A stretch of 64,000 nt of DNA from Sphingobium sp. (GTDB lineage Bacteria > Pseudomonadota > Alphaproteobacteria > Sphingomonadales > Sphingomonadaceae). Each line of letters begins with the position of its first letter. The first letter of the stretch is position 1. Shown here piece by piece: positions 7,453 to 58,100 of the stretch. The position numbers and the translations under genes are program-made. The stretch spans positions 221,993 through 285,992 of the forward strand of contig JAGRES010000003.1 of assembly GCA_020446425.1 (NCBI GenBank), written 5' to 3'. The notes beneath the pieces are model-generated. The model saw only the letters and a list, made by a program, of their open reading frames with translations. It searched no databases and was not told the origin of the DNA.

Positions 7453-7932
7453 TCAATTCACTGGGCCCCATAGTGAAGAGGCGAGGATAAAGCCTCTTTG
7501 CCCCTCGACATCGACCAGGCACCAGCCATCCTTGCATTCGCTGATCTTGCCGACAACGCCTTTTTGCACACGGTATAACATGCTGGATTTATCATCGCGT
7601 TTGGACCGTATCTCGCCATTATTGACGACGACGATGGCTGTTGTTGTATCGCTGAGCAATTGAACATGCATCCAGCCCTGCGTACCTGACGGATCCTCTA
7701 TCTTGCGCCAGTTGCTGTGAACCTGCAGCACTTTCACCGGCAGGTTCCTGCGCCGGTAAACCCAGTTGGCGGGATAATCCTTGCTGGGGCCGACGCGCAT
7801 GCGCGCCTCTCCCGATGAAATGGAAGCCCAATAGGGCGTTTCCTTGACCTGGCCACGGAGGGAGGCAGGCGCCACAATCGCCAACGCAGCCAAAAACATG
7901 CATAACGCCCGCACACCGAATCCTGCCATCAT
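7453..7932 (-). CDS. Secreted SH3-domain protein
   Basis: A short exported protein with two bacterial SH3-like regions. The first is ASISSGEARMRVGPSKDYP followed by NLPVKVLQVHSNWRKIEDP and QGWMHVQLL; the second is GEIRSKRDDKSSMLYRVQKG to GWCLVDVEGQRGFILASSLWG. Such domains usually bind peptidoglycan or peptides in the envelope. I prefer the ATG at 7932, which places a clean signal peptide at the N-terminus (MMAGFGVRALCMFLAALAIV). A GTG at 7977 would add 15 polar residues. No partner is evident from the neighbours. Confidence 0.82.
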   Translation of the reverse strand: MMAGFGVRALCMFLAALAIVAPASLRGQVKETPYWASISSGEARMRVGPSKDYPANWVYRRRNLPVKVLQVHSNWRKIEDPSGTQGWMHVQLLSDTTTAIVVVNNGEIRSKRDDKSSMLYRVQKGVVGKISECKDGWCLVDVEGQRGFILASSLWGPVN

Positions 7933-38103: not shown

Positions 38104-38865
38104 TTACAACGCAAGCAGTCTCTGGCTAACCCACCAGCCAGGCAAGGCGGCGACACACAGGAAAGTACCGAGCGGCAGCATGGATTGCGCGTTCAGCCTG
38201 CCGCCGGAACGCACCGCGCCGGCCAGCGCGGTTACCAGTCCCAGCAATGATGCGGCCAGCAGGATGAACGGCAGCGCCTGCCACCCGAACCATGCACCCA
38301 ATGCGCCCAGCAGCTTTGCATCGCCCAGCCCCAGCCCCTCGCGCCCGCGCAATTTGCGATAGGCGATAGCGATCAGTAGCAGCACACCATAGCCAATAGC
38401 CGCTCCGATGAGCCCGTCGGTCAGGCGCGTGCCCGTTACCCAGGGCGCAACCATCAGGCCCAACCCCGCGAGCGGCAATGTCAACGCATCGGGCAGCCAA
38501 TAATGCCGCGCATCCAGCACGGCGAGCGCCAGCAATATCCAACCTAGCGCCATCCAGCCCAATGCATAAGGCAGCGGTGCAACAAATGCTGCCACGCCGC
38601 CAATCACGGCGCAGCCCAGCTCGATGCGCCAATGAACTGGGTCGATCCACGCGCCGCAGCTCATACAACGGCCGCGCTGCATCAGCGCGCTCAGCAACGG
38701 CACCAGCTCAACCGGCCCAAGCACCCGCCCGCATTGGTCGCAGGCCGAGCGGCCACGCAGTACGCTCTTTCCATCGGGCCAGCGCATCATCAGCGCCGCG
38801 AAAAAACTTCCGAAAATCAGACCGAGGACGACCCCGGCGATCACCGCAAAAGGCTGGGCGATCAC
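38104..38865 (-). CDS. gspO: Type II secretion prepilin peptidase GspO
   Basis: Integral aspartic protease that cuts pseudopilin leaders after the Gly and methylates the new N-terminus. 253 residues: N-terminal zinc-type cytoplasmic loop with CDQC and CMSC, the active Asp residues in LDARHYWLPD and GLGDAKLLGALGAWFGW (GxGD). The start is GTG at 38865, overlapping the gspN stop (GTGA), with GAAGGG five bases upstream. It is the last gene of the operon, so the peptidase and its substrates are coexpressed. Confidence 0.94.
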   Translation of the reverse strand: MIAQPFAVIAGVVLGLIFGSFFAALMMRWPDGKSVLRGRSACDQCGRVLGPVELVPLLSALMQRGRCMSCGAWIDPVHWRIELGCAVIGGVAAFVAPLPYALGWMALGWILLALAVLDARHYWLPDALTLPLAGLGLMVAPWVTGTRLTDGLIGAAIGYGVLLLIAIAYRKLRGREGLGLGDAKLLGALGAWFGWQALPFILLAASLLGLVTALAGAVRSGGRLNAQSMLPLGTFLCVAALPGWWVSQRLLAL

Positions 38866-40063: not shown

Positions 40064-41163
40064 GGCATCACCGTGATCTGGGCGATCACCCGCCCGCCCG
40101 GATCGGCAGAGGATGTCGCGGTAATGGTGTAATCCGCCGCCTGAATATCGAGCAGCACCTTGTTGATGTCGTCCGCTCGCGCCGAAGCCAGCGTGGCATG
40201 GACCAGCCCATCATCGCCCCGGCTGAGTGTGGTCAGGCTGACGCCCGGCGCGCCTTGCATCGCGGTCATCAGGCCCGCTGCCGGGCCGGTAAATCCGAAA
40301 CCGCCCGCGCCACGCTGGCTTAACATGCGATCCAGTTCTTCCTCTGCCAGCTTAGCGTCGTTCGCGGCGGGTAGAACGCTGCGCGCTGCTTCAACCGTCT
40401 TGGCGTCGAGGCGCGATGCGCTCCAGTGATATTTCGCGATCAGTGCCAGGCTAATCAGCAACGTGGCCAGCGCGATGAAGGCTGCCCACATGGCGAGACG
40501 CTTGAGGTAGCTGGCATCGACCCCGCTCTTGCGCGGCTTGGCGAATTCACCCGCGCGCAGGTTGATGGGCGGAGCCGCAAAGGCGCTTAGCACCATATGA
40601 TCGACATCATCCGCATTGAGCGCGTGGACCTGCTCGTCCGCCGTCAGAGGCCCCATCCATGGTTCGGTGGCACTCGCAGCGATGTCCTTACCGCGAATAA
40701 TATCTTCGCCGTTCAATTGAGCCCGTACAAACCCCACTTCGGGTTCGGCGATCAGCGCCCATGCAGGCAACATCACATCCGGATCGACACCTTGCTCGCG
40801 CGCCCATGCGATATAATGCGCGACATCGCTACGCGCCGCCACCGCGACATGGCCACCGTCACGCGCAGGCACGGTATGCAATCCGTCACTATCCTCGATG
40901 CTGGCCTCGCGCGCCATGCGGGCCGCAACCGTGCGCGCTTGGGCGGGCGTCATATCTGCTGGCAGGTCGACACGCCGCATCGTCACGCTGGAGGACGGAA
41001 CCACCAGCATGACCGGCATGTCATCGCTCACGCCCGCCTCCATACCCGCTCTGGCAGCGGCACCGGATCGCGAATCGATCTGCCCATCGATGATCTTCCA
41101 CCATACCGGTACGTGATCCGGCATCGATGGAACAAACAGGACGAAGCCATTTTCCGTGCTCAT
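40060..41163 (-). CDS. gspL: Type II secretion protein GspL
   Basis: Bridges the GspE ATPase to the membrane platform. 367 residues: actin-like cytoplasmic domain (FVLFVPSMPDHVPVWWKIID, VMLVVPSSSVTMRRVDLPAD), a membrane helix near 230-250 (LAMWAAFIALATLLISLALI) and a periplasmic ferredoxin-like domain pairing with GspM. It overlaps both neighbours by four bases. Confidence 0.92.
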   Translation of the reverse strand: MSTENGFVLFVPSMPDHVPVWWKIIDGQIDSRSGAAARAGMEAGVSDDMPVMLVVPSSSVTMRRVDLPADMTPAQARTVAARMAREASIEDSDGLHTVPARDGGHVAVAARSDVAHYIAWAREQGVDPDVMLPAWALIAEPEVGFVRAQLNGEDIIRGKDIAASATEPWMGPLTADEQVHALNADDVDHMVLSAFAAPPINLRAGEFAKPRKSGVDASYLKRLAMWAAFIALATLLISLALIAKYHWSASRLDAKTVEAARSVLPAANDAKLAEEELDRMLSQRGAGGFGFTGPAAGLMTAMQGAPGVSLTTLSRGDDGLVHATLASARADDINKVLLDIQAADYTITATSSADPGGRVIAQITVMP

Positions 41164-42140
41164 GGGCGCTCACCCCATGTCCTGCGCACCAGCCGGACCG
41201 GGCTGGATTGCGCATCATAGAGCGCCCATTGCCGCATTCGGGTTCCCCCAATCTCCACGTTCAGCTCAGCCCCAAACCACCGCGTTTTCAGGCGCACCTG
41301 CTGCGCCACTTCGGCAGGCGGCGTCAAGCCCTGTCGTGCTGAGACCGCCCAGAAATCGACAGTGCTGTCATAGCCTCCCGGAGGGCGAACCGCGAGCAAT
41401 GCACGCGCGCCGTCAAGCGTCAGCTTGCCGGGAATCAGCATGGCGAGCAGCGGCGCTTGCTGCGGCAGCAGCGTATTAACATTGATCGGCGACAAATCTG
41501 TTGAGGGCAGCGCACATATCCAGGGTTTCAGCAGGTTATAAACCGCTGGCGACACCCCTGCCACCGCGCGTAATTCGCTGGCGTCCGCCATCATGCGGTT
41601 GGCCGCGCGATAAGGGTTTTCTCCGCTTAGATAGGCCTCATCTTCCGCACCGCCCGGCTGTGGCACCGCATCACTGTCTATCCAGTCTGCCGCAGCAGCT
41701 GCGATCAGACGGCTATCGGGAACACCAAGCGCATCCATCAGCGCCGCGAACTGGCTGACGGCGATTGGGCGGGCTTTCAGATTGGCATCGCCTACCCCAG
41801 CGACAAGACTGTTGAGGTTAAAGCAATTGCCAGCATCATATGGCGCGATCGACGCTACACCGCCCGGAACCGGCAGCGCTTGCGCATGACCCATCCACCC
41901 GCCTTCCAGCGTCAGCTTACCCGGTTGTGCGTCCATCAACTCGCTCAGGCGCTTCTCGGCAAGCAGGCTGGCGCTGTCAGCATAGGCGCGTGCCTGATCC
42001 CCCGTCGCAGCATTGGCGGAAAGGCGCGAGGCGAGTGTCAGCTTCTCCAGCGATGCAGCGGCGATCACTGCCATTACCGCAACCAGCAGCAACACCGTAA
42101 GCAGCGCGGCTCCGCGTTCCTGTTCCCGAGGATCAGGCAT
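41160..42140 (-). CDS. gspK: Type II secretion minor pseudopilin GspK
   Basis: Large minor pseudopilin capping the pseudopilus tip with GspI and GspJ. 326 residues: short leader REQERG, then the hydrophobic helix AALLTVLLLVAVMAVIAAAS. It lacks the Glu5 of the other pseudopilins, as GspK proteins do. The following globular part contains the family's NLNSLV, LPNSRL-like and SPINVNTLLPQQAPLLAMLI segments. It overlaps gspJ by eight bases. Confidence 0.93.
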   Translation of the reverse strand: MPDPREQERGAALLTVLLLVAVMAVIAAASLEKLTLASRLSANAATGDQARAYADSASLLAEKRLSELMDAQPGKLTLEGGWMGHAQALPVPGGVASIAPYDAGNCFNLNSLVAGVGDANLKARPIAVSQFAALMDALGVPDSRLIAAAAADWIDSDAVPQPGGAEDEAYLSGENPYRAANRMMADASELRAVAGVSPAVYNLLKPWICALPSTDLSPINVNTLLPQQAPLLAMLIPGKLTLDGARALLAVRPPGGYDSTVDFWAVSARQGLTPPAEVAQQVRLKTRWFGAELNVEIGGTRMRQWALYDAQSSPVRLVRRTWGERP

Positions 42141-42861
42141 CGCCGCCCTCCTCTTTCACCGGATCGGCTTTCCCGAGACCCACACGGAATTGCAGGGTCA
42201 GCGGCGCTTCTCCGTTGCGGTTGATCGTCAGGCGCACTGCCGCCGGCAAGGATCGCGGCTCATGCGATTGCCATTGCTCGATCCATGCGCCGCTGCCGTC
42301 CCGAAAACCCATATCGAGCTGCTCGACATCGCCGATCAGCAATGCCGGTTCGCCGCCCGCCGCGCCATCGACCATGGGATAGATACGACGCTCCAGCTTG
42401 CCGCCGCGCAGCCAATATTCCACCTTCTGTATATCGGGCCGCGATGAATCGTCGAGATTGATCCAGCCACCGCGCACAAATTGCAGGAACGGTTCGCTCT
42501 CGCTCGGTGGGCGCGAGAAAAAGGCGGGCGCGAGCAGGCCGCTTTCGGTGCGGCTGATGCGCGGTATCGCCTCGCTCATATCCTGCTCAATCAACGCGAC
42601 AACGCGCAGCATGCCGCTCTGTTCGTCAAGATGCTCCGCCACCTGCCCTTGTGCGGACACCGCATTGCCCAGCAACATCACGCCTGCCGCCGAGAGCATC
42701 GCGAAAATCGTGAGCGCGACAAGCAGCTCGATCAGCGTGAAGCCGCGCTCGTTGGCACTCGATCGCGTCCCCGCGCAGGCGGGGACCCAAGGCCTCAAAC
42801 GCCGTACTCTCGAATCTGGGCTCCTGCCTGCGCAGGAGCACGAGAATCGCCCACACCTCAT
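42133..42861 (-). CDS. gspJ: Type II secretion minor pseudopilin GspJ with an inserted, extended leader
   Basis: 242 residues as encoded. The mature part starts FTLIELLVALTIFAMLSAAG, with a globular beta domain (FFSRPPSESEPFLQFVRGG, MVDGAAGGEPALLIGDVEQL). The leader is about 40 residues instead of about 12: MRCGRF, then the translation of a palindromic repeat (RRLRPWVPACAGTRSS), then NERG|FT. The ATG overlaps the gspI stop (ATGA), which fixes this start. Removing 84 bp would leave the leader MRCGRSSANERG. Since GspO removes the leader, the insert may be harmless, but a 40-residue leader may slow processing. Confidence 0.9.
   Translation of the reverse strand: MRCGRFSCSCAGRSPDSRVRRLRPWVPACAGTRSSANERGFTLIELLVALTIFAMLSAAGVMLLGNAVSAQGQVAEHLDEQSGMLRVVALIEQDMSEAIPRISRTESGLLAPAFFSRPPSESEPFLQFVRGGWINLDDSSRPDIQKVEYWLRGGKLERRIYPMVDGAAGGEPALLIGDVEQLDMGFRDGSGAWIEQWQSHEPRSLPAAVRLTINRNGEAPLTLQFRVGLGKADPVKEEGGDA
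42767..42845. repeat. Double-hairpin palindromic repeat element inside gspJ
   Basis: 79 bp with two hairpins, each with 8-bp perfect arms and 4-nt loops: GTCCCCGC (42767-42774) / GCGGGGAC (42779-42786) and GCTCCTGC (42820-42827) / GCAGGAGC (42832-42839). It is flanked by 5-bp direct repeats ATCGC (42762-42766, 42846-42850). It belongs by look to GC-rich repeats whose frames read WVPACAGT; copies elsewhere in the genome were not searched. Confidence 0.75.
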
Positions 42862-43232
42862 TGCTGCGCTCTCAGGAACGTGAGCACGGCGGGCGAACCG
42901 CCGCCGCCGCGCGCTGTGACCTGTATGTCGACGCGCACAATATCGTCGGCATCGGTAGCCGCCACCTTTTGCTCCCAACGCCATTGCCGCCCGGCGTTTT
43001 CCGCTTCTCCCTTGCTGTCGCCCATGGCCAGCGGGCCGGGCACGGTCTGCGCATCCACCATCAGATTATGCGCGACGATATGCGCGATCTGGCGCTCGCC
43101 AAGATTGGCCGTCGTACCGATGGAAACCGCCTGCAAGCGAATGAGCGCCAGCGCGGCGAGGCTGAACACCGCCAAAGCAACCATCATCTCCAGCAGCGTA
43201 AAGCCGCGCTCCAGATGTGTGCCCTTAGCCAC
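42858..43232 (-). CDS. gspI: Type II secretion minor pseudopilin GspI
   Basis: 124 residues, normal size: leader AKGTHLERG|FTLLEMMVALAVFSLAALAL with Glu5 of the mature form, then AVSIGTTANLGERQIAHIVA, W in QWRWEQKV and a final RVDIQVTARGGGGSP strand. The start is GTG at 43232, with GAAGGG nine bases upstream; it lies inside the 3' end of gspH (TAA 43225-43227). Together with J and K it forms the tip complex. Confidence 0.9.
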   Translation of the reverse strand: MAKGTHLERGFTLLEMMVALAVFSLAALALIRLQAVSIGTTANLGERQIAHIVAHNLMVDAQTVPGPLAMGDSKGEAENAGRQWRWEQKVAATDADDIVRVDIQVTARGGGGSPAVLTFLRAQQ

Positions 43233-43683
43233 CGACACGCACCCTTCCCGCACCATCGAGCGTAACCGGCATAGCCTCGCCATCGCGCTCCAGCACAATG
43301 CGCGCCGCCTGTGTCGGAATGCCGGTACTGTCAAAGCGCAGCATGATCCGGCCTTTTTCACCACCAACCTGCGCGCGCGTACCGCTGCGCCAACTGGTCG
43401 TGCGAAATGGCTTGTCCTCGCTCTGGGTCCACACACCGTCGCGATATCGCTCAAAGCCATAGGCCGAGGGCGACACCCATATGGCGACTGGCTGCGCCTC
43501 TATCACCGCATTGTCGCGCGCGGCGGCAAGACGTGCCGCGAAACGATCCGCATCGTCAACCAGCCGCCCGCGAGGATCGGGGATCGACAGGACCACCGCC
43601 GCCGACGCAAAACCGATAATTGCGATCACGACCATCAGCTCGACCAGCGTGAAGCCGTGCTGGGCGGAATGCCGCGAAGACAT
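43225..43683 (-). CDS. gspH: Type II secretion minor pseudopilin GspH
   Basis: 152 residues: leader MSSRHSAQHG, then FTLVELMVVIAIIGFASAAV, followed by DRFAARLAAARDNAVIEAQP, IWVSPSAYGFERYRDGVW and a C-terminal RMVLERDGEA-like strand (ARIVLERDGEAMPVTLDGAG). The ATG at 43683 gives a typical leader; the ribosome site is poor. A 105-bp palindromic element occupies most of the 142-bp gap to gspG. Confidence 0.9.
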   Translation of the reverse strand: MSSRHSAQHGFTLVELMVVIAIIGFASAAVVLSIPDPRGRLVDDADRFAARLAAARDNAVIEAQPVAIWVSPSAYGFERYRDGVWTQSEDKPFRTTSWRSGTRAQVGGEKGRIMLRFDSTGIPTQAARIVLERDGEAMPVTLDGAGRVRVGG

Positions 43684-43707
43684 AAAGCCATGCTTTTCAA
43701 CCTTAAT

Positions 43708-43812
43708 CCGTTCGGTTCGAGCAAGCTTCGAGCAAAGCCGAGAAGCTGTGTCGAGAACGCCTTTCTCGACTTCGGTTCTCGACGCACTCGAACCTCCGCT
43801 CGAAATGAACGG
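43708..43812. repeat. Palindromic repeat element in the gspG-gspH spacer
   Basis: Ends CCGTTC / GAACGG (43708-43713, 43807-43812). Inside, perfect pairs GGTTCGAG / CTCGAACC (43714-43721, 43787-43794) and GTCGAGAAC / GTTCTCGAC (43750-43758, 43775-43783). In mRNA this makes a long nested hairpin just 3' of gspG. The ends resemble those of the element at 58211-58328. Confidence 0.75.
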
Positions 43813-43825
43813 TGGAAGGAGAGTT

Positions 43826-44305
43826 TTATATCTCGCTGGAATAGATATCCGCATTGTCCGCTTCACCGCCCGGCTGGCCATCGGCTCCCAGCGAATAGAT
43901 ATCGAACGGCCCTGTCCGGCCCGGCGCAGAATATTGATAGGCGCGGCCCCAGGGGTCATCCGGCAGCTTCTTGATATACCCACCGCGACGATAGCGTTCC
44001 GGTTGCGGCAGGCTGGGCGGCGGCGTCATCAGCGCCTGCAACCCTTCCGTCGCATTGGGATAGGTCAGGTTATCGAGGCGATATTGCTCCAGCGCCTGCT
44101 CGATCGTCGCGATATCGGCCTTCGCCTTCTCAACCCGCGCGGTATCCGTGGCGGGAATGACGTTGATGGCGACAATGGTGGCCAGCAAACCGATGATCAC
44201 AATGACGACCATCAGCTCGACCAGCGTAAAGCCGTGTTCGGCGGCACGCCGGGCGGTCATGACGCCCTTCTTGACCAGTTTGCGTTTCTTATATGCGACT
44301 TTCAC
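43826..44305 (-). CDS. gspG: Type II secretion major pseudopilin GspG
   Basis: The main building block of the pseudopilus. Mature start FTLVELMVVIVIIGLLATIV, then the GspG-specific DTARVEKAKADIATIEQALE, YRLDNLTYPNATEGLQALMT, calcium-site and C-terminal PDDPWGRAYQYSAPGRTGPF with DIYSLGADGQPGGEADNADI. I used GTG at 44305 (159 residues, GGAG seven bases before it, 12 bp after gspF). ATG at 44260 would give a shorter leader (TARRAAEHG) and 144 residues and is equally good. Confidence 0.93.
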   Translation of the reverse strand: MKVAYKKRKLVKKGVMTARRAAEHGFTLVELMVVIVIIGLLATIVAINVIPATDTARVEKAKADIATIEQALEQYRLDNLTYPNATEGLQALMTPPPSLPQPERYRRGGYIKKLPDDPWGRAYQYSAPGRTGPFDIYSLGADGQPGGEADNADIYSSEI

Positions 44306-52508: not shown

Positions 52509-52595
52509 TGGTGCGGACGGCGGGACTCGAACCCGCACTCCCAAACGGGAAGCGGATTTTAAGTCCGCTGCGTCTACCGGTTTCGCCACGTCCGC
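52509..52595 (-). tRNA. tRNA-Leu (anticodon TAA)
   Basis: Full cloverleaf on the minus strand: acceptor GCGGACG (52595-52589) pairing with CGTCCGC (52519-52513), D arm, anticodon stem GCGGA / TCCGC around CT-TAA-AA (anticodon 52561-52559), long variable arm of class II tRNA, and T arm GCGGGTTCGAGTCCCGC. CCA is encoded (52511-52509). Reads UUA/UUG leucine codons. Confidence 0.96.
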
Positions 52596-58024: not shown

Positions 58025-58100
58025 GGGGCCGTAGCTCAGCTGGGAGAGCGCTACACTGGCAGTGTAGAGGTCAGGGGTTCGATCCCCCTCGGCTCCACCA
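58025..58100 (+). tRNA. tRNA-Ala (anticodon GGC)
   Basis: 76-nt cloverleaf: acceptor GGGGCCG / CGGCTCC with the G3-U70 pair that marks alanine, D arm GTAGCTCAGCTGGGAGAGC-type, anticodon stem CTACA / TGTAG around CT-GGC-AG, T arm and encoded CCA (58098-58100). Reads GCC/GCU. Confidence 0.97.

Follow-up and report, generated by a model that had tools for sequence, protein, structure and literature searches.

The gsp operon and the leader of GspJ

The window, a stretch of 64,000 nucleotides of a Sphingobium sp. contig (JAGRES010000003.1), comes from a genome of 2.73 Mb in which the genes gspD-E-F-G-H-I-J-K-L-M-N-O run along the minus strand (Table 1). The identity of gspJ is established by the score of 106.2 against a cut-off of 64.85 for TIGR01711, by 32.1 against 16.3 for TIGR02532, and by the motif GFTLIE. 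Four prepilin-type N-terminal motifs are recognised by TIGR02532 in this genome, all at the coordinates of gspG-gspJ, and the product of gspO is the expected remover of the pseudopilin leaders. An earlier note on this DNA had described a coupled gspJ ATG at 42861, a leader of 40 codons up to the G|F motif and an ATCGC at two places, all of which are borne out, the ATG overlapping the gspI stop. At the gathering threshold, the Rfam matches in the window are two tRNA genes (52512-52595 and 58025-58097) and no others.

Table 1. Coordinates of the gsp genes, leaders and repeat elements in the window.
Feature	Position	Strand	Remarks
gspO, prepilin peptidase	38104..38865	-	Pfam Peptidase_A24 and A24_N_bact
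gspK	41160..42140	-	NF037980, 261.6 bits; short leader, the exception in the genus
gspJ	42133..42861	-	Stop included; T2SS minor pseudopilin; TIGR01711, 106.2 bits; Pfam T2SSJ
GspJ leader	42742..42861	-	40 codons; last residue is the G before the F of GFTLIE
Hairpin h3	42745..42766	-	Directly after h2; codes RSSANER directly before the cleavage-site Gly
ATCGC, copy 2 of the reported direct repeat	42762..42766	+	Within an arm of h3 (alignment)
Hairpin h2	42767..42786	-	Perfect 8-bp stem, 4-nt loop; orientation opposite to h1
Hairpin h1	42820..42839	-	Perfect 8-bp stem, 4-nt loop
ATCGC, copy 1 of the reported direct repeat	42846..42850	+	
GspI leader	43203..43232	-	VAKGTHLERG; short, without repeat
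gspH	43225..43854	-	Start taken at the conserved ATG, 29 nt inside gspG; Pfam GspH and N_methyl
GspH leader	43654..43854	-	67 codons from the conserved ATG; no in-frame stop
Second repeat type, in frame in the GspH leader	43708..43812	-	TTTCGAGCG...GCTCGAA
33-nt-unit core at the GspG cleavage site	44229..44249	-	One mismatch; ...RRAAEHG|FTLVEL

The leader of GspJ contains three hairpins, of which h1 and h2 have the geometry of CGTC-tagged REPs (stem of 8-9 bp, loop of 4-5 nt), while h3 has one mismatch in this genome and covaries in relatives. The fold of the 100 nt beats 200/200 shuffles as DNA (z -3.1) and is beaten by 1/200 as RNA (z -2.8). Covariation was evaluated on 26 of 31 related leader segments, four of another length and one duplicate being omitted. 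In this set h2 and h3 are paired in 91.0% of the cells (h2 96.2%, h3 85.2%), against 29.5-50.3% for slid controls, and 51 cells are changed on both sides, a number reached by 0/500 shuffles. Two of the five covariation measures for h2/h3 were no better than shuffles in the 26 segments; pairs with a change on both sides number 7, which 44/500 shuffles reach, and further pair types number 11, which 492/500 reach. When the whole arrangement of h1, spacer, h2 and h3 is aligned without gaps to ten leader segments selected from other species, identity amounts to 51-77% over 105 nt (shuffles 28-31%), the best partners being one GspG and one GspH leader; the spacer alone gives 18-54%. The DNA of h3 has 15 matches in 11/94 genomes, every one at gsp-operon coordinates. 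Tails of the RSSANERG type recur behind the leader hairpin in GspG, GspH and GspI of other species. The GspJ leader here holds one three-hairpin composite, relatives of which occupy GspG, GspH, GspI and GspJ leaders elsewhere.

In its own genome, the composite has no second copy of the whole 100 nt at E <= 0.001. Related hairpins nevertheless give 14 pattern matches, two of them the gspJ element itself, against 2 in the reversed control, and several of the other copies read GTCATCCCC. Of the copies foreseen by the earlier note, the genome offers related hairpins at roughly five further doublet sites, where some of the partners were identified by eye, but no close copy. The palindromic element which the note had placed in the gspJ leader is retained as hairpin-forming, in-frame, repeat-related DNA, but with neither the 79-bp borders nor the target duplication.

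The assumption that the GspJ leader would be the sole tolerant place does not hold, as the leaders of GspG, GspH and GspI are also affected, that of GspH in this very genome included. Since an in-frame GspH ATG at -29 is conserved, the GspH leader here must be counted as 67 codons long and repeat-bearing; the borders of its repeat are approximate, and the family resemblance was assessed by eye against relatives. Beside this second repeat type, the same leader (43654-43854) also has stretches resembling the 33-nt unit described below (HGFMSSRHSAQHG).

Length, phase and start codons in Sphingobium

GspJ was found in 88/94 Sphingobium genomes at E <= 1e-30. Genes were placed by tblastn in 89 gsp regions (every gene in all 89 except D, in 86, E, in 87, and F, in 88), and each junction was measured from the upstream stop to the anchor of the next gene. 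The statistics refer to 78 loci of standard order: 11/89 (L217-L227) were excluded because the positions of H and I come out reversed, and L198 was dropped at H-I for an aberrant value. The reversed positions suggest a gene order G-I-H-J in these 11 loci.

The distance from the upstream stop to the cleavage site ranges over 10-292 nt at G-H (78 loci), 13-271 nt at H-I (77 loci) and 11-290 nt at I-J (78 loci). The J-K junction is 25 nt in 65/78 loci (range 22-58), E-F is -8 in 75/76, L-M is -4 in 75/78, and K-L is -4 in 67/78 with a range of -10 to 88, the last value in one locus. The D-E junction, which is without a cleavable leader, extends from -52 to 160 (75 loci), a variation put down to loose C-termini of GspD and N-termini of GspE. 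At F-G the range is 68-267 nt (77 loci); its 3621 in-frame codons contain 6 stops, where the other frames have 115 and 143, but this variation is not counted as support because the start of GspG is uncertain.

Over these ranges of length the phase hardly moves. It is constant in 77/77 loci at H-I, with 0 stops in 1937 in-frame codons against 49 and 29 in the other frames, in 77/78 at I-J (0 in 2202 against 58 and 37), and in 73/78 at G-H (3 in 2501 against 41 and 58). Phase and open frame across the 78 loci thus place the variable DNA in frame within protein-coding genes, the position that defines the Rickettsia palindromic elements (RPE) considered below. The GspJ start codon lies at -4 in 77/78 loci; many of these starts read GTGATG, so that translation may in fact begin at the ATG directly after the GTG, and in L160 no in-frame ATG, GTG or TTG occurs within the stretch examined. 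For GspH, the in-frame ATG at -29 is present in 71/78 loci. By these comparative signs the extra leader DNA is, to all appearances, coding. A leader of 12 residues, which had been called typical for GspJ, does not characterise the genus, where GspJ leaders span 5-98 residues by the chosen starts.

Amino-acid constraint on the leaders

Substitutions were compared in 20 disjoint close pairs with 94.5-99.8% identity in concatenated proteins; leader changes were counted in conservatively aligned blocks, and the mature counts come from a separate, earlier alignment. At codon positions 1/2/3 the leaders show 27/19/28 changes for J, 24/23/37 for I and 28/32/38 for H, and mature GspJ shows 131/67/675. 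The GspK leader, with 9/12/40, retains a third-position excess that is slightly weaker than in mature GspK (p = 0.03). Leader length differs in 15 of the 20 pairs for J, 14 for H, 10 for I and 1 for K. The codons of the H, I and J leaders appear nearly free of amino-acid constraint, while their frame is kept.

Repeat units, dispersed doublets and copying between leaders

Another leader-borne repeat is a 33-nt unit that codes RSAEHGFTSLR-like repeats. Its core has 163 matches in 65/94 genomes, 162 of them in frame; 155 lie in gsp regions, all on the sense strand, with 154 in frame before the cleavage site, and the remaining 8 lead into the G|FTLIE motifs found in pseudopilin-like genes of three genomes (G032, G090 and G100). 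In the whole order, 47 matches occur in 22/396 genomes and 5/84 genera, and 47/47 run in frame into a prepilin motif. The hairpin of the unit alternates between GCC-G-AACA-C-GGC and GCC-C-AACA-G-GGC, so that both stem partners are exchanged, with counts of 162 for G-C, 66 for C-G and 25 for other pairs (10 of them G-T).

The unit-bearing genes of G090, G032 and G100 (L229-L231) are not part of the main gsp operon; in G032 the unit stands four times in tandem, and in G090 the genes fall, by eye, within a second T2SS-like cluster. The sole core match in a GspK leader, in L192 at about 7618-7638 (gsp sense), is out of frame; that leader has 22 residues against the usual 11.

Dispersed repeats are found in the same position. 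The GspJ leader of L177 holds an in-frame doublet of 78 nt that is missing from L173, although mature GspJ is 98.0% identical in amino acids between the two, and no target duplication was seen by eye in the aligned pair. The insert is a dispersed inverted doublet: each of four genomes gives 77-81 matches, many sites being matched on both strands and scoring being limited to 40 candidates per genome. The 33-nt unit is similarly present in L186 and L174 and absent from L179, L181 and L161. These pairs show in-frame insertion or loss; change counts on a tree come from a quick FastTree tree of 87 loci, 75-76 of them labelled, and are no proof of independence.

Leader DNA is in some cases common to different genes of one genome. 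In G080 the GspH and GspJ leaders have 78 identical nt in common, and exact common stretches of 30 nt or more are found in 5/205 within-genome leader pairs against 2/1640 between genomes. The overall excess of sharing within genomes is slight (205 against 1640 pairs, p = 0.03), with few strong cases.

A probably disposable leader open to repeats

In Sphingobium and some relatives, the leaders of four pseudopilins seem to be a parking place for repetitive DNA. We consider it likely that a leader cleaved by GspO tolerates in-frame palindromic DNA, and that this DNA also spreads between pseudopilin leaders. The leaders of GspG, GspH, GspI and GspJ would be translated but disposable segments, with starts overlapping the preceding gene at constant positions (the gspI stop for GspJ, 29 nt into gspG for GspH) and with cleavage by the prepilin peptidase at G|FT, so that any in-frame DNA between start and cut would be read and then discarded. 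Phase, open frame and fixed start codons of the leaders are observed; we infer that leaders of 40-98 residues are translated and cleaved. If the leader is read and then discarded, selection would preserve the frame and the cleavage site and hardly the leader sequence. The proposal of the earlier note that the discarded leader can bear such insertions is strengthened by the in-frame expansion of the same leader position across the genus, by its nearly unconstrained codons, and by the near-clean presence or absence of the dispersed repeat and the 33-nt unit among relatives.

Three routes may have filled the leaders. Dispersed REP-type doublets may have inserted there, the 33-nt hairpin unit, which ends in the cleavage-site DNA GGCTTCACG, may have grown in tandem, and pieces of leader may have been copied from one pseudopilin gene to another. 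Tolerance alone leaves the sparing of GspK unexplained. We infer that the common cleavage-site DNA, GGCTTCACG, serves as a copying anchor, and GspK would be spared because its different cleavage-site DNA offers none. A more tentative extension, which we hold possible but doubtful, is that the Sphingomonadaceae harbour a leader-only palindromic cassette, namely the 33-nt unit, whose 3' end is the cleavage-site DNA and which would multiply in tandem and pass copies from one pseudopilin gene to another, even outside the main operon. Together with captured REP doublets, it would make the leader a hypervariable array under selection for frame only.

It can alternatively be hypothesised, with little likelihood in our view, that selection acts on the hairpins as mRNA elements, which would set the relative amounts of the pseudopilins, translational coupling remaining intact. 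The element types examined are palindromic, and both stem partners have changed in h2/h3 and in the unit hairpin; the covariation of the latter means that the hairpins could matter in themselves. Such covariation could, however, be inherited from mobile REP families, and the unit alone has a weak predicted DNA fold (z -1.3). The products of the gsp operon are required in unequal amounts and the hairpins stand at its gene boundaries, but their presence, number and type differ between close relatives, and the I-J gap is shorter than 60 nt in 30/78 loci.

Marginally less probable again is the view that the repeats are untranslated spacer, or ordinary intergenic repeats, and that the pseudopilins start just before the cleavage site. 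The available text of PMC3733652 warns that many N-terminal REPs may be extragenic if translation starts downstream, and gspJ of the present genome does have an in-frame TTG 19 codons upstream of the cut. Start-like codons are found in some units, and 14/48 long GspJ leaders have a start-like codon within 20 codons of the cut, but the other 34/48 have no ATG, GTG or TTG at that distance. An untranslated spacer would also be difficult to reconcile with the constant phase, with in-frame stops that are near-absent at H, I and J and number dozens in the other frames, and with overlapping start codons kept at fixed offsets.

It is quite improbable that the recurrence of RSAEHG before the cut reflects convergence, with the peptide itself under selection as an effective signal for the prepilin peptidase. 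The peptide stands at the cut in many genes of several genera; nevertheless 104/134 RSAEHG units have one common 18-nt spelling against codon bias, the R codon being CGT in 121/134 against a background of 8%, which argues for copying rather than convergence. RSAQQG, the other common form, alters both stem partners and the peptide together, and many GspJ leaders are without RSAEHG. Convergence of the peptide is thus disfavoured by the codon spelling.

Scarcely credible is a single clean transposition, as put forward in the earlier note, in which a 79-bp element would have entered a native GspJ leader of 12 residues (MRCGRSSANERG) and duplicated the 5 bp ATCGC. In its favour, ATCGC does occur twice and 84 bp is divisible by three, but the restoration of that leader is purely arithmetic, and a chance 5-bp repeat in two short flanks has a probability of a few percent (rough estimate). 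Target duplication and native leader are both rejected: the second ATCGC lies inside h3, which covaries in the 26 related segments, and the RSSANERG tail accompanies the hairpin in leaders of GspG, GspH and GspI from other species. The comparison of gspJ leaders in relatives yielded no empty site; that of the nearest relative, MKRAEAG (7 aa), is unusable as such because its GspJ, 61%-65% identical, is too distant.

Known systems and significance

When palindromic repeats occur in coding sequence, the usual explanation is that the finished protein tolerates them. Under the reading preferred here, of a leader that is translated and then cut off, Sphingobium would offer a genus-wide natural experiment with a segment that is probably translated, in frame, almost unconstrained and discarded, in which repeat insertion, tandem growth and between-gene copying could be measured in coding DNA. 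The same reading predicts that pseudopilin leaders of up to about 98 residues are acceptable both to the prepilin peptidase and to the export route, and it carries a warning for annotation, namely that the starts of these pseudopilins should not be trimmed.

The presence of repeats in coding DNA is already known, as the available parts of two papers attest (PMC3733652; PMC10969869). A description of repeats in pseudopilin leaders was not found in titles and abstract openings among the matches listed, and the strings "pilin" and "leader" are absent from the main text of PMC3733652 as available. The closest likeness by position is to the RPE, which are in-frame palindromic insertions in protein-coding genes according to the accessible text of PMC10969869. 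As described there, RPE lie in unrelated genes and are retained in the protein, whereas the Sphingobium repeats lie in pseudopilin leaders expected to be cut off; the latter also comprise several repeat types plus a leader-only unit. Prepilin leaders are known to vary in length and some are very long, as in type IVb prepilins and Streptococcus sanguinis (PMC10191384, available part), and the GspJ leaders of up to 98 residues (by chosen start) vary likewise; that part of PMC10191384 describes neither repeat-built leaders nor changes between sister species.

The hairpins themselves resemble the CGTC-tagged REP superfamily in the 8-bp stem, the 4-nt loop and the inverted doublets, and the available text of PMC3733652 reports CGTC-tagged families in S. 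chlorophenolicum and S. wittichii as well as intragenic CGTC REPs. They differ from these in that h1 is without a clear CGTC tag and h3 comes after the doublet; by eye, a CGTC is present at h2 but overlaps the stem, and h1 has a CGTG. The GspJ-leader insert of L177, an inverted doublet with many dispersed copies, is REPIN-like, but it is in frame in a leader. REPINs are inverted REP doublets that are mobilised by a RAYT transposase. In the GspJ leader of L183, a doublet of the L177 type holds a further in-frame insert, a repeat within a repeat.
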